From: Nitrospirota bacterium
GTDB taxonomy: Bacteria > UBA2233
Reading direction: 5' to 3'
Assembly (NCBI GenBank): GCA_011620345.1
Contig: WOZJ01000049.1
Coordinates: forward strand, 4,469 to 41,025
Length of the DNA stretch: 36,557 bases
Shown here piece after piece: positions 988 to 4,462 of the stretch; the first letter of the stretch is position 1, and each line of letters starts with the position of its first letter. The translations under genes and the position numbers were made by a program. Below the pieces are notes generated by a model. The model was not told where the DNA came from. It saw only the letters and a program-made list of their open reading frames with translations, and ran no database searches.

Positions 988-1290
988 ATGCGGCTTGCCA
1001 AAATCGTCGTGGGGGACATCAACCAGCTTACGGGTGGCTATCTTTACCAAAAAAAGCTTGTGGATTCCCTAAGGAAGACGGGCCAGCACGCCATTGTTCC
1101 GCTCGGCATCGACGAGGGCAGGTGCGGATCGTCTACCCTGGGTTTCACCTGCTTGGAAAGCCAAGAAAAAGAATACGGGGCTTCCAATCTCCCCTCAAGC
1201 TCCTCTTTGCAGTATCGGTGGTACCCAATAAAGGCCTCCATCTCCTGATCGATGAAATGGGCCAGCTCCATACCCAGCTCGTTGTTCTAG
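988..1290 (+). pseudogene. Decayed GT4-type glycosyltransferase remnant
   Basis: Two frames on the plus strand carry glycosyltransferase-like stretches. From 988 one frame gives MRLAKIVVGDINQLTGGYLY then QKKLVDSLRKTGQ, a typical N-terminal Rossmann opening of GT4 enzymes. A different frame, about 1125-1290, gives IVYPG... PLKLLFAVSVVPNKGLHLLI and QLVVLDV, resembling the start of the second nucleotide-sugar-binding domain. An intact enzyme would be near 350 residues; here head and tail lie within about 300 bases and in different frames, so at least one deletion and one frameshift have occurred. The 3' end runs into the convergent PTPS-like gene. No good ribosome site precedes 988. It is most likely a dead gene. 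The former partnership with the neighbouring pterin-synthase-like and dehydrogenase genes is inferred from position. Confidence 0.6.
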
Positions 1291-1670
1291 ACGTTCTCGG
1301 TAATCCTGACGAAGGCCTGTGGCGACTCCCAGAGCGTGACGTCGCTAAGGAAAACGCCTTTTGGGAGGCGGCCCTGAAGGCCGGCTTCGAGTTCTTTCCA
1401 TAAAAACCCGGCAAGCAATTCGGCAGTCGGGTTTTGTGCCGTGAAGGGCTCAGTATCGTTTAGATGCCTTGCTTCGATCTTGGAAACGACCGAGCCTAGC
1501 GCCAGTTCAATCAAGGTAATGTCCACGAGAACCCCGTCTTGATTCAAGCCCCCTCCAGCGAAGACCGCACGAACCCTGTAATGGTGGCCGTGGGTGAGGC
1601 TTGCCTTTCCAAAGTCCCCCCTCAGGGCGTGCGTGGCGTAGAACTGAGCCTCGATGCCGACTTCAATCAT
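1287..1670 (-). CDS. 6-pyruvoyl-tetrahydropterin synthase-like (QueD superfamily) protein lacking the catalytic cysteine
   Basis: A 127-residue T-fold protein of the PTPS/6-carboxytetrahydropterin synthase superfamily. The three zinc-ligand histidines are visible: H14 in YATHAL, and H27 and H29 in THGHHY. The conserved NPTAE (80-84) and the substrate-anchoring Glu in TLWESP (E115) are also present. The catalytic Cys expected four residues before HGH is Ala (A23), and the protein has no cysteine anywhere. The usual LDHxxLN motif is IEARHLN, so the catalytic His is also replaced. Normal PTPS or QueD chemistry is therefore doubtful; it may bind a pterin or run a different aldol or dehydration reaction. 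Its ATG overlaps the end of the upstream dehydrogenase gene by 8 bases, which implies translational coupling. Superfamily is confident, substrate unknown. Confidence 0.8.
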   Translation of the reverse strand: MIEVGIEAQFYATHALRGDFGKASLTHGHHYRVRAVFAGGGLNQDGVLVDITLIELALGSVVSKIEARHLNDTEPFTAQNPTAELLAGFLWKELEAGLQGRLPKGVFLSDVTLWESPQAFVRITENV

Positions 1671-2670
1671 AAGCGAACACTACTTGGAGCGCCTCGTAAG
1701 GACGCTTCTCCAAGAGCGAAAATGCCTCTTGCGCCCTGCCAAGCGGGAAGGTGTGCGTGATCAAAGAACCCAGCGCAAGGCGCTCAACCAGCGTAAGGGC
1801 AAGCTGGATTCTCCGGGCCTTATCCCACCGTCTAGAAAGAAAAGGCGGCAGAAAGGAAACCTGAGAGCCTTTGAGAGACAATCGGTTCTTATGAAAGTTT
1901 CCGCCCAGGTGTAGGCTTGCCGCTCGCGTTCCGTACCAGGACAAGACAACAACCCGCCCGTCGAGTCCGGCAAGAGAAAGGGCAGTATTCAGGGTGTTTG
2001 GTTTGCCCGAAGCCTCGATCACAATGTCTGCCCCCTCCTCGCTAAGGGCCTGCCCGAGCGCTGCCAATCCTGCCTCGTCCGGGCCAAACGCGGCATCCGC
2101 CCCAAGAAGGCTTGCCGCTTCCCTACGCGCTTCGATTGGGTCGAGCCCGAACACCTTCTCGGCGCCGGCCAGCTTGGCCAGCCCGACAACCAAAAGGCCG
2201 ACCACTCCAAGCCCGAGGACTACGAGTGTCTCGCCGAGGAGAAGGCTTGCATCCCAGAGCCCGTTCAATGCCGTTTCGGCGTTCGCCGCGAACACTCCCA
2301 AGCGAGGCTCGAGCCCTTCCGGCAAGGGGTAAGCCTGGGCTTCTTCCACAAGGAACGCCCCTTGGTGCGGATGATGGGCAAAAACGCGCATGCCGGGCTC
2401 TAGGCGCTTCACGCCCGGGCCAACCTCAAGAACCTCGCCAACAAGCGCGTATCCGTACTTTATAGGGTAGGAAAACGACCCGGAAACCGTTGGGAGCGTA
2501 GGGTAAAACCCTTCGGGAACTTCTCCTTTGTATACCAACAGCTCTGTCCCGGCGCTAATACCCGAATACAACGCCTTGACAAGCACTTCTCCCGCCTTGG
2601 GCGGGCCGACGCTCTCCGAGCGAAGAGCAAGCCTTCTTGGGGATTCGACCCAAAGCGCACGTGCTTCCAT
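1663..2670 (-). CDS. BchC-like medium-chain dehydrogenase/reductase without zinc-ligand cysteines
   Basis: A 335-residue MDR-superfamily NAD(P)-dependent oxidoreductase. The N-terminal GroES-like domain contains SGISAGTELLVYKG, the signature of the MDR subgroup related to bacteriochlorophyllide dehydrogenase BchC. The Rossmann domain is marked by VVLGLGVVGLLVVGLAKLAG (about residues 150-169) and an acidic residue in FGLDPIEARR. There is no cysteine in the whole chain, so both the catalytic zinc site (usually Cys-His-Glu) and the four-Cys structural zinc lobe are missing. This agrees with the zinc-less nature reported for the BchC-like subgroup. It lies 19 bases downstream of the AAA+ regulator gene and overlaps the PTPS-like gene by 8 bases, so the three form one operon. 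The ribosome site is weak. Substrate unknown; a pterin or sugar-alcohol side chain is possible but speculative. Confidence 0.85.
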   Translation of the reverse strand: MEARALWVESPRRLALRSESVGPPKAGEVLVKALYSGISAGTELLVYKGEVPEGFYPTLPTVSGSFSYPIKYGYALVGEVLEVGPGVKRLEPGMRVFAHHPHQGAFLVEEAQAYPLPEGLEPRLGVFAANAETALNGLWDASLLLGETLVVLGLGVVGLLVVGLAKLAGAEKVFGLDPIEARREAASLLGADAAFGPDEAGLAALGQALSEEGADIVIEASGKPNTLNTALSLAGLDGRVVVLSWYGTRAASLHLGGNFHKNRLSLKGSQVSFLPPFLSRRWDKARRIQLALTLVERLALGSLITHTFPLGRAQEAFSLLEKRPYEALQVVFAYD

Positions 2671-2689
2671 GGCAGACGGTACGTTCCGT

Positions 2690-4186
2690 TCAGCTCTCTT
2701 CCTTGGGCCAGAGGTTAAACTTCTTTACCCGGTACTCGAGCTGTCTCCTTGTTATCCCAAGTTCTCTGGCAGCCTTGCTCAGCACCCAGCGGTTCCGGGC
2801 AAGGGCGCGATTGATCTCGCCAAAATCCTCATCCTTGACCCTTCCTGCGCCCATGAGCACCTGCTTGCGGCTGCCACGTTTCTTTCCCTGGAAAGCCTCC
2901 TGGATCTCGACAGGGAGATGCCCCAAATCGACCACCTCATCGGCCATGACAAAGGCATACTCTAGGACAGCATGAAGCTGCCGCAAATTGCCTGGCCAAG
3001 GGTACCGGGCCACGAAGGCAAGCAATGCCTTGCTCGGGCGCTTTTTTTGGCCGTACCGCTCCGAGAGGGACTGCACGATGCCCTCCACGAGCCGCCCCGC
3101 TTCGCTCTTTCTTTCCCGAAGTGGCAACAGGTGAAGCTTCGCCGCGTTCAGCCTGTAATACAGCTCCGGGCGGATGCGCCCTTCCTTAAGGTCTTGCTCT
3201 AAGTCATGCTCTGCAGTCCCCACGATGCGTACATCGGCATCCAGCACATCTTGCCCGTCTTTCTTGGCGAAACGCTTGTGCTCCAAAAGGTCCACAAGCT
3301 TGGCCTGAACACCCAAAGGAAGGGCTCCTACCCCTTCAAGTACCAGCGTCCCCCCGCAGGCAAGCTCAAGCTTACCGTACCTTAGAGGGTCTCCTTCGGA
3401 GCCAAAAAGCTCTTCCTCGACGTCCTCCGGAGGAAGGTTCTCTACGTCGAGAACAAGAAATGGTTCGTCTTTCCTTTGGCTTAGCTCATGCAGCCTTCTT
3501 GCAAGCGTCGTCTTTCCTGTGCCGCTCTCTCCCACAATCAAGACGGGCAAACCCGAGGAGGCAAGCTTCTGTACGATGCAGGAGTCCGGCAAAAACGGCT
3601 CTAGAGTAGCATTGCGATTGCAAAGCATTCCGCCCAAAGACTTCAGTTGCACCTTGAGCGATTCGAGGCGTAGGTTTTGTTCCGCGAACTTCTCCAAGAG
3701 AGTGCCCAGAATCACCACAGCTGCCTTTAGGAACTCCAGCGCCCCAAACTCGCCCCCCGGGATGGTCTCAGGGCTAAACGTCGCCACGACAACCCCTAGC
3801 TTCACCCTGCTCGCCCCCCGAATCGGCATAAGCAGGACTCGAATTGGAGCGTCGCCATCTTTGAACATGAGGGGCAAAGATTCTTCAGGCTCGGCAACGA
3901 CGGCGACTCCCGTTCGGAGGGCGTTAGCCAGTATCCCCTCGGAAGAAAGCTCCAACCGAGAGGCAGGCTTGAGGCGTTCCCCATGAAAAAAGGCGCTTGC
4001 AAAAGAATGGGAAGAAGAATATGAGAGCCAAATGCCTAAGTCCTCAAAGGGCCAGTAAGCCAAAAGGTTTTGTGCCCATTTCGTTGCGAGCCGCTCGGGC
4101 AAGTCTGAGGGGTTGACGTCACGCAAGAACTGGCAAAGCCAGGTAAGGGTTCTGTTGCAATGACCAAGGTATGCTTCGCGTTTCAT
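2690..4186 (-). CDS. NifA-like GAF/AAA+/Fis-HTH transcriptional regulator with degenerate sigma-54 contact loop and Walker B
   Basis: A 498-residue protein with the layout of a bacterial enhancer-binding protein: GAF-like sensor (about 20-165), AAA+ module (about 195-430), Fis-type helix-turn-helix (about 455-492, KAARELGITRRQLEYRVKKF). Walker A is intact (GESGTGKT, 219-226), as are the arginine-finger region (GRIRPELYYRL, 336-346) and sensor II (YPWPGNLRQL, 395-404). Two hallmarks are broken. The GAFTGA loop that touches sigma-54 is absent: the stretch is EELFGSEGDPLRYGKLELA. Walker B, normally LFLDE, is LVLEG (281-285). Similar loss of GAFTGA is known in regulators acting on sigma-70 RNA polymerase, such as TyrR and some NtrC or HupR proteins. 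It is the first gene of an operon with the BchC-like and PTPS-like genes. The start is ATG with AAGGGA about 8 bases upstream. The ligand is unknown. Confidence 0.88.
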   Translation of the reverse strand: MKREAYLGHCNRTLTWLCQFLRDVNPSDLPERLATKWAQNLLAYWPFEDLGIWLSYSSSHSFASAFFHGERLKPASRLELSSEGILANALRTGVAVVAEPEESLPLMFKDGDAPIRVLLMPIRGASRVKLGVVVATFSPETIPGGEFGALEFLKAAVVILGTLLEKFAEQNLRLESLKVQLKSLGGMLCNRNATLEPFLPDSCIVQKLASSGLPVLIVGESGTGKTTLARRLHELSQRKDEPFLVLDVENLPPEDVEEELFGSEGDPLRYGKLELACGGTLVLEGVGALPLGVQAKLVDLLEHKRFAKKDGQDVLDADVRIVGTAEHDLEQDLKEGRIRPELYYRLNAAKLHLLPLRERKSEAGRLVEGIVQSLSERYGQKKRPSKALLAFVARYPWPGNLRQLHAVLEYAFVMADEVVDLGHLPVEIQEAFQGKKRGSRKQVLMGAGRVKDEDFGEINRALARNRWVLSKAARELGITRRQLEYRVKKFNLWPKEES

Positions 4187-4320
4187 AAAATATATCCCTT
4201 GTTTATCTCTTTGCTGATCGTTGAGACATGATTTTCGCCTAAAAAAGACGCCCCCTGGCTACCAATGTTTAAGAATACCACTTCCTTACAGCTTACAATA
4301 GGATCTTTGCAATTCTTTGC

Positions 4321-4368
4321 TCGAACACCTTGGCCAAGCAGCACATGCGGCCTTGGAAGGCCGTAGCG
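4321..4368 (+). repeat. Diverged copy of the GGCCGTAGC intergenic repeat (copy D)
   Basis: This lies in the 276-base gap between the divergent regulator and acyl-CoA dehydrogenase genes. The run ACACCTTGGCC...AGC..CATG then AAGGCCGTAGCG aligns with the right half of the better-preserved copies near 11.4 and 12.5 kb. It contains its own palindrome, GGCCTTGGAAGGCC. No convincing sigma-54 (GG-N10-GC) promoter was found in the rest of the gap. Confidence 0.4.
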
Positions 4369-4462
4369 AAAACCTCTTCCCAGGATGTCGGAGTATCGTG
4401 TATGCTAATAAATATCTTTGAGTACATCGAATGATTCACCTTGATCCTAGCGAGGAGTGGCT

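Follow-up and report, generated by a model that had tools for sequence, protein, structure and literature searches.

The DNA analyzed here is a stretch of 36,557 nucleotides, hereafter the window, from a Nitrospirota bacterium (GTDB lineage UBA2233; assembly GCA_011620345.1, contig WOZJ01000049.1, positions 4,469 to 41,025 of the forward strand). Three adjoining minus-strand genes near its start encode an NtrC-type AAA+/Fis regulator, a BchC-like zinc-less medium-chain dehydrogenase (MDR) and a PTPS homologue, and the relic of a GT4-type glycosyltransferase gene lies beside them (Table 1). The regulator and MDR genes are separated by 19 bases (2671-2689) and the MDR and PTPS genes overlap by 8 bases (1663-1670), in agreement with the initial annotation of this DNA, in which the three genes were proposed to form an undescribed operon. 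We conclude that the MDR and PTPS probably represent the core pair of a widespread MDR-PTPS-GT4-methyltransferase cluster, preserved intact in a copy that has otherwise eroded.

Homologous loci were surveyed by scanning an MDR alignment against the genomes of 84,980 species, which gave at least 586 confirmed relatives, and gene content was counted in the best 80 of these loci from named genomes. PTPS was present at 73 of the 80 loci, GT4 at 69, a methyltransferase at 65 and a RibD-like reductase at 56. Lower counts were obtained for a CDP-alcohol transferase (47/80), RibA (GTP cyclohydrolase II; 35/80), FkbM (27/80), a lysylphosphatidylglycerol (LPG)-synthase-like protein (26/80) and cytochrome b (15/80), and creatininase was rejected as a constant partner with 19/80. 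Where enough sequence was available, PTPS was found immediately downstream of the MDR and on the same strand at 70 of 76 loci (58 from the automated count and 12 where the longest-start frames overlap), the remaining 6 having none. MDR, Cys-less PTPS and GT4 are thus a real, conserved cluster, and the co-occurrence that the initial annotation had suggested searching for is borne out. Complete clusters usually add the RibD-like reductase, and often GTP cyclohydrolase II, a CDP-alcohol phosphatidyltransferase and a flippase-like membrane protein. At six loci (L081, L091, L093, L097, L115 and L150) a cluster-type MDR stands with neither PTPS nor GT4 close by; this MDR also occurs in partial sets or is put to other uses.

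A tblastn search of plasmids located adjoining MDR and PTPS genes in haloarchaea, rhizobia, Rhodobacteraceae, Thiodictyon, Methylosinus, Streptomyces and Microbacterium. Their annotated neighbors include GT4, a class I methyltransferase, a RibD family protein and a CDP-alcohol phosphatidyltransferase, together with GTP cyclohydrolase II or IIa, creatininase and an LPG-synthase-like membrane protein, in a layout common to the haloarchaeal, rhizobial, Streptomyces and Thiodictyon replicons. Haloarchaeal clusters have the unrelated GTP cyclohydrolase IIa in place of the bacterial RibA. Judged by record titles, the cluster occurs in Pseudomonadota, Actinomycetota, Acidobacteriota, Chloroflexota, Marinimicrobia and other phyla as well as in haloarchaea, and is often plasmid-borne. 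Of 386 diverse genomes sampled, only four, including that of the window, matched the MDR profile at E < 1e-120, the next best match being 1.9e-49; the cluster therefore occurs widely but sporadically. PTPS and GT4 also adjoin the MDR in two of the remaining three genomes. An MDR search of 59 genomes returned generic MDRs only (23-35% identity). No description of the cluster and no product were found in the literature searched, and to that extent the proposed operon can be called undescribed, although the structure of a related PTPS homologue, SCO6650, has been solved (PDB 3d7j) and the regulator is not a member.

The window MDR is 37-42% identical to the MDRs of the homologous clusters and matches the cluster MDR profile, which includes it, with an E-value of 2.7e-131. 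At the sites of the usual zinc-ligand motifs it reads SGISAGTE and KYGYALVG, and the family-invariant residues S39, G41, T42, E43, Y72, G73 and Y74 are present. The NCBIfam models that fit it best are those of BchC and IolM, and with BchC (TIGR01202) it scored 76.2 bits, below the cut-off of 291.

In the window PTPS, the catalytic Cys/Asp/His triad is gone. The Cys of the CxxxHGH motif is absent (the protein reads GKASLTHGH), and IEA stands where Escherichia coli QueD has LDH. Neither CxxxHGH nor the catalytic Asp-His of QueD could be found, whereas all three zinc histidines (H14, H27, H29) and the ring-binding glutamate (E115) are retained, and the score with the NCBIfam QueD model was 52.5 bits, under the cut-off of 89.25. 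When the window PTPS alone was searched against PDB sequences, SCO6650 was the best match (3.8e-10), followed by QueD (6e-6), and a cluster PTPS profile that includes the window protein matches 3d7j at 6e-61. An AlphaFold2 model of the protein (pLDDT 96) was placed by Foldseek about equally close to QueD (3qna) and SCO6650 (3d7j), with TM values of 0.84-0.88. In the PTPS tree, the QueD clade leaves the window PTPS outside with support of 98/94, and this exclusion is the one firm point to be read from the tree. A second branch of cluster PTPS comprises those of haloarchaea (L062, L063), L071 and L072. The HxH of the zinc-histidine motif is kept in the window, L071 and Haloarcula proteins; L072 reads HAH and the SCO6650 type HGA.

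The same 1.8 Mb genome has two more PTPS genes (G000:C69:1912-2178, L060; G000:C18:1538-1699, L003). One of them has ExxHGH and is folate-type (PTPS-III-like), and the other has CxxxHGH and is QueD-like with an unusual internal insertion; published work assigns these motifs to folate-type PTPS-III and to QueD, respectively (PMC5041015). The window PTPS is therefore a third, specialised paralogue. The annotation of the cluster PTPS as a '6-carboxytetrahydropterin synthase' of the queuosine pathway is probably wrong. Some Cys-type QueD-like proteins are 41-43% identical to the window PTPS, as could be expected if it were a QueD that had decayed independently and had no relation to the neighboring MDR. 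This is highly unlikely in view of the MDR-PTPS adjacency, the 42% identity of the MDR to cluster MDRs, the ranking of SCO6650 as the best PDB sequence match and the position of the PTPS outside QueD. All QueD-like matches that were inspected were Cys-type and had no MDR alongside. The initial annotation took the missing catalytic residues in intact frames as a sign of altered function. The residues are indeed missing and the frames intact, but the altered residues are common to the family and no local change; their loss is a family trait and not decay.

Table 1. Positions of the features in the window.
Feature	Position	Strand	Characteristics
Cys-less PTPS homologue (T-fold)	1287..1670	minus	127 aa, intact frame; Pfam PF01242 1e-24
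BchC-like zinc-less medium-chain dehydrogenase (MDR)	1663..2670	minus	335 aa, intact frame; Pfam zinc-binding dehydrogenase 3e-19
NtrC-type AAA+/Fis regulator	2690..4186	minus	498 aa; Pfam sigma-54 interaction/AAA + Fis 9e-35
GT4 relic, N-terminal piece	988..1092	+	Family model positions 5-39; cluster GT4 HMM
GT4 relic, middle piece, different frame	1110..1307 (about)	+	Model positions 148-210; cluster GT4 HMM
ArsM-type arsenite methyltransferase	170-889	minus	NCBIfam 288.7 bits vs cut-off 263; adjoins GT4 relic

A hidden Markov model (HMM) was built from 69 GT4s of the homologous clusters. It matched the N-terminal piece of the relic with E-values of 2.4e-9 and 1.7e-8 in two runs and the middle piece with about 8.5e-7 to 2e-5, the end of the latter, which enters the 3' end of the PTPS gene, being uncertain. 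About 108 codons between the pieces are gone, as is the C-terminal part. Elsewhere in the window only the ArsM methyltransferase exceeded the threshold, through its Rossmann fold (E 0.002), and every other non-Rossmann stretch scored far below the relic pieces. The relic had no match in Pfam or NCBIfam. By eye, the GT4 of L071 (MKIHFIIPGELEQLTGGYIYDRK) resembles the window sequence (MRLAKIVVGDINQLTGGYLYQKK). Since a model made from cluster GT4s finds two pieces right beside the PTPS, the GT relic noticed in the initial annotation is genuine, a remnant of the same cluster's GT4. With two pieces only and no intact GT4, the locus was filed as an eroded remnant and not as a working member.

Other cluster genes were sought in the genome family by family. 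No intact cluster GT4 was found elsewhere; RibD and RibBA were present in canonical form only, with no cluster-type RibD-like reductase or RibA; the four CDP-alcohol enzymes, the same as in the sister genome, include none of the cluster type; and there was no creatininase. The locus lacks a cluster-type methyltransferase, its neighbor being ArsM-type, and no genome-wide search was made for this family. RibD-like reductase, RibA, CDP-alcohol transferase and creatininase are accessory in complete clusters too. Directly before window position 1, a scaffold gap (a run of N at about 4370-4468 of contig G000:C34) appears to have the same sequence, KVGLYTDQDRLRAKDPDG, on either side, perhaps an assembly artefact.

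The genomes sampled include a single genus mate (G001), all others being related at domain level only, and the organism is therefore from a deep lineage with few sampled members. The flanks of the locus match in this sister species, with protein identities of 94.6% for ArsM, 88% for the regulator and 94% for an acyl-CoA dehydrogenase, which in the window is divergent from the regulator gene across 4187-4456. Of the sister MDR only scraps of 24 and 16 residues are left, and of its PTPS about 57 residues that contain indels; with both destroyed in the sister, the locus is being lost in the genus and is not a thriving new operon. In the sister, the N-terminal part of GT4 remains, interrupted by two single-base gaps; further pieces are suggested by weak matches at model positions 223-246 and 302-335 (E 0.13-0.23), whereas the window retains 148-210. 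Because the two species retain different pieces, their common ancestor probably had a full-length GT4 gene from which each lineage deleted different parts. Over 102 sites of the N-terminal stretch, the relics are 87% identical (13% different), compared with a divergence of 14% at four-fold sites between window and sister; the relic has diverged as expected without constraint.

It comes close to an even call whether, as a finer branch of the eroded-cluster explanation, the MDR and PTPS are themselves already dead weight, with the pathway gone from the genus and the two genes intact only through recent orphaning. The near-neutral GT4, the destruction of both genes in the sister and the lack of other cluster genes in the genome all point that way. 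However, both frames are intact, and the chance of no stop arising in them over the window's branch under neutrality is about 0.05, indels uncounted. The MDR departs from the family at 9 of 63 invariant columns, compared with 14 of 64 for each of its two closest homologues, and at conserved family columns MDR and PTPS are no worse than those of L071 and L072. Their codon-position GC is ordinary. Both genes look sound, and these observations argue for selection on MDR and PTPS during at least part of the branch, though not necessarily for function today.

The other branch, that the pair is selected for a function independent of GT4, such as a two-enzyme change of the side chain of a pterin or flavin precursor, is conceivable though somewhat doubtful. 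It would account for the intact frames and conserved residues, and partial sets do occur, as the 6 of 80 loci with an MDR but neither PTPS nor GT4 in reach demonstrate; the two other PTPS paralogues also make the window PTPS probably dispensable for queuosine and folate. On the other hand, the sister lives without the pair, and no partner gene was found. As the GT4 is dead and no RibA, RibD-like reductase or CDP-alcohol enzyme of the cluster type was found elsewhere in the genome, the pair may either carry out an abbreviated reaction that draws on metabolites from the ordinary riboflavin or pterin pathways, or have been orphaned recently.

The regulator follows a different course. In alignment to NtrC1 it lacks the GAFTGA loop and has LVLEGVG instead of LFLDEIG at Walker B, and these altered AAA motifs, including the loss of GAFTGA, are common to both species. 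Sigma-54 (PF04552) is present in both genomes. In the sister the gene is intact (88% protein identity). The ratio of nonsynonymous to synonymous substitution rates (dN/dS), which had been suggested as a check for all three genes, was computed for the regulator among them and is 0.32, compared with 0.12 and 0.11 for neighboring genes; it is constrained, though less than these. It appears to be a stable regulator of derived type, and the usual sigma-54 contact mechanism is unlikely for it. A regulator-type gene occurs at only 1 of the 80 cluster loci, and far away, and the regulator survives the loss of MDR and PTPS in the sister; we therefore judge that it is not a cluster member, contrary to the three-gene operon first proposed. 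The 19-base gap, which the sister keeps as the gap to its MDR scrap, could be explained if regulator, MDR and PTPS formed a new operon complete in itself, with the regulator as its specific switch. We regard such an operon as quite unlikely, considering that the homologous clusters lack the regulator and that the regulator outlives the MDR and PTPS under measurable constraint.

For the complete clusters, the partner genes suggest a route. The RibA and RibD-like partners suggest a start from a GTP-derived pyrimidine, in which a RibA-type enzyme would open GTP to a (ribosylamino)pyrimidine phosphate and the RibD-like enzyme would reduce the side chain. The PTPS homologue, which has the T-fold and retains the ring-binding Glu but no triad, may bind a pyrimidine or pterin-like ring without carrying out the PTPS reaction. 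The zinc-less nature of the MDR suggests metal-free hydride chemistry, and together with the PTPS this NAD(P)-dependent enzyme could effect a redox change of the side chain. GT4 and the methyltransferase would then decorate the product, which the CDP-alcohol transferase may attach to a lipid or alcohol. RibA, RibD-like and GT4 partners are compatible with a glycosylated GTP-derived product, and we tentatively suggest, short of calling it probable, that the complete clusters make a GTP-derived glycoconjugate. More speculatively, the product may be a cofactor or pigment of an undescribed class, glycosylated and possibly also linked to a lipid, that bacteria and haloarchaea share, the window pair having outlasted the glycosylation step.

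Several points weigh against reading the window pair as the core of an eroded cluster. The GT4 relic is oriented opposite to MDR-PTPS, contrary to most clusters. The tree joins the window PTPS only weakly (97/78) to the cluster PTPS of Haloarcula, L071 and L072, and by identity its nearest rows are QueD-type (41-43%). The genome is a draft, so that an absent gene may be unassembled, and the reactions proposed above for the cluster are predictions from sequence.

The orphan cluster is of more interest than the window copy, which is partial and eroding. It combines a PTPS homologue unable to use the textbook mechanism with a GTP-opening enzyme, a riboflavin-type reductase, a zinc-less dehydrogenase, a glycosyltransferase and a lipid-type transferase, and its presence in culturable Streptomyces and Halomonas makes product and function directly testable. 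What the window adds is a natural series of loss, from the complete cluster through a pair with a dead GT4 to scraps only.

Among known systems, SCO6650 of Streptomyces coelicolor has the same T-fold as the window PTPS and is likewise without the catalytic Cys/Asp/His, and its family adjoins zinc-less MDR and GT4 in Streptomyces clusters. The SCO6650 type has lost one zinc histidine (HGA), whereas the window PTPS keeps HxH. Bandarian and co-workers reportedly solved the SCO6650 structure and found that SCO6655 makes a formyl pyrimidine; SCO6650 is said to have neither PTPS activity nor zinc. The Met at the Tyr105 position is reported to make SCO6655 stop at the formyl-pyrimidine. Among cluster RibAs, Met occupies this position only in two Streptomyces clusters (L142, about 15.7 kb; L066:13578-14237) and Tyr is found elsewhere; a formyl-pyrimidine (FAPy)-forming RibA was rejected as a cluster-wide rule, Met being confined to Streptomyces. 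SCO6655 itself is a GTP cyclohydrolase II (RibA paralogue), and RibA, found in 35 of the 80 clusters, is absent from the window locus, the genome having riboflavin RibBA only. QueD/PTPS-I and PTPS-III (COG0720) have the fold and zinc histidines in common with the window PTPS, which lacks both CxxxHGH and ExxHGH. BchC, the bacteriochlorophyllide dehydrogenase, resembles the window MDR in length and has a related motif, but the window has no chlorophyll context. The cyanobacterial pteridine glycosyltransferases (BGluT/PgtA; PMC3546692) are comparable in concept, in that they place a sugar on a pterin, as the cluster GT4 may do on a related acceptor.

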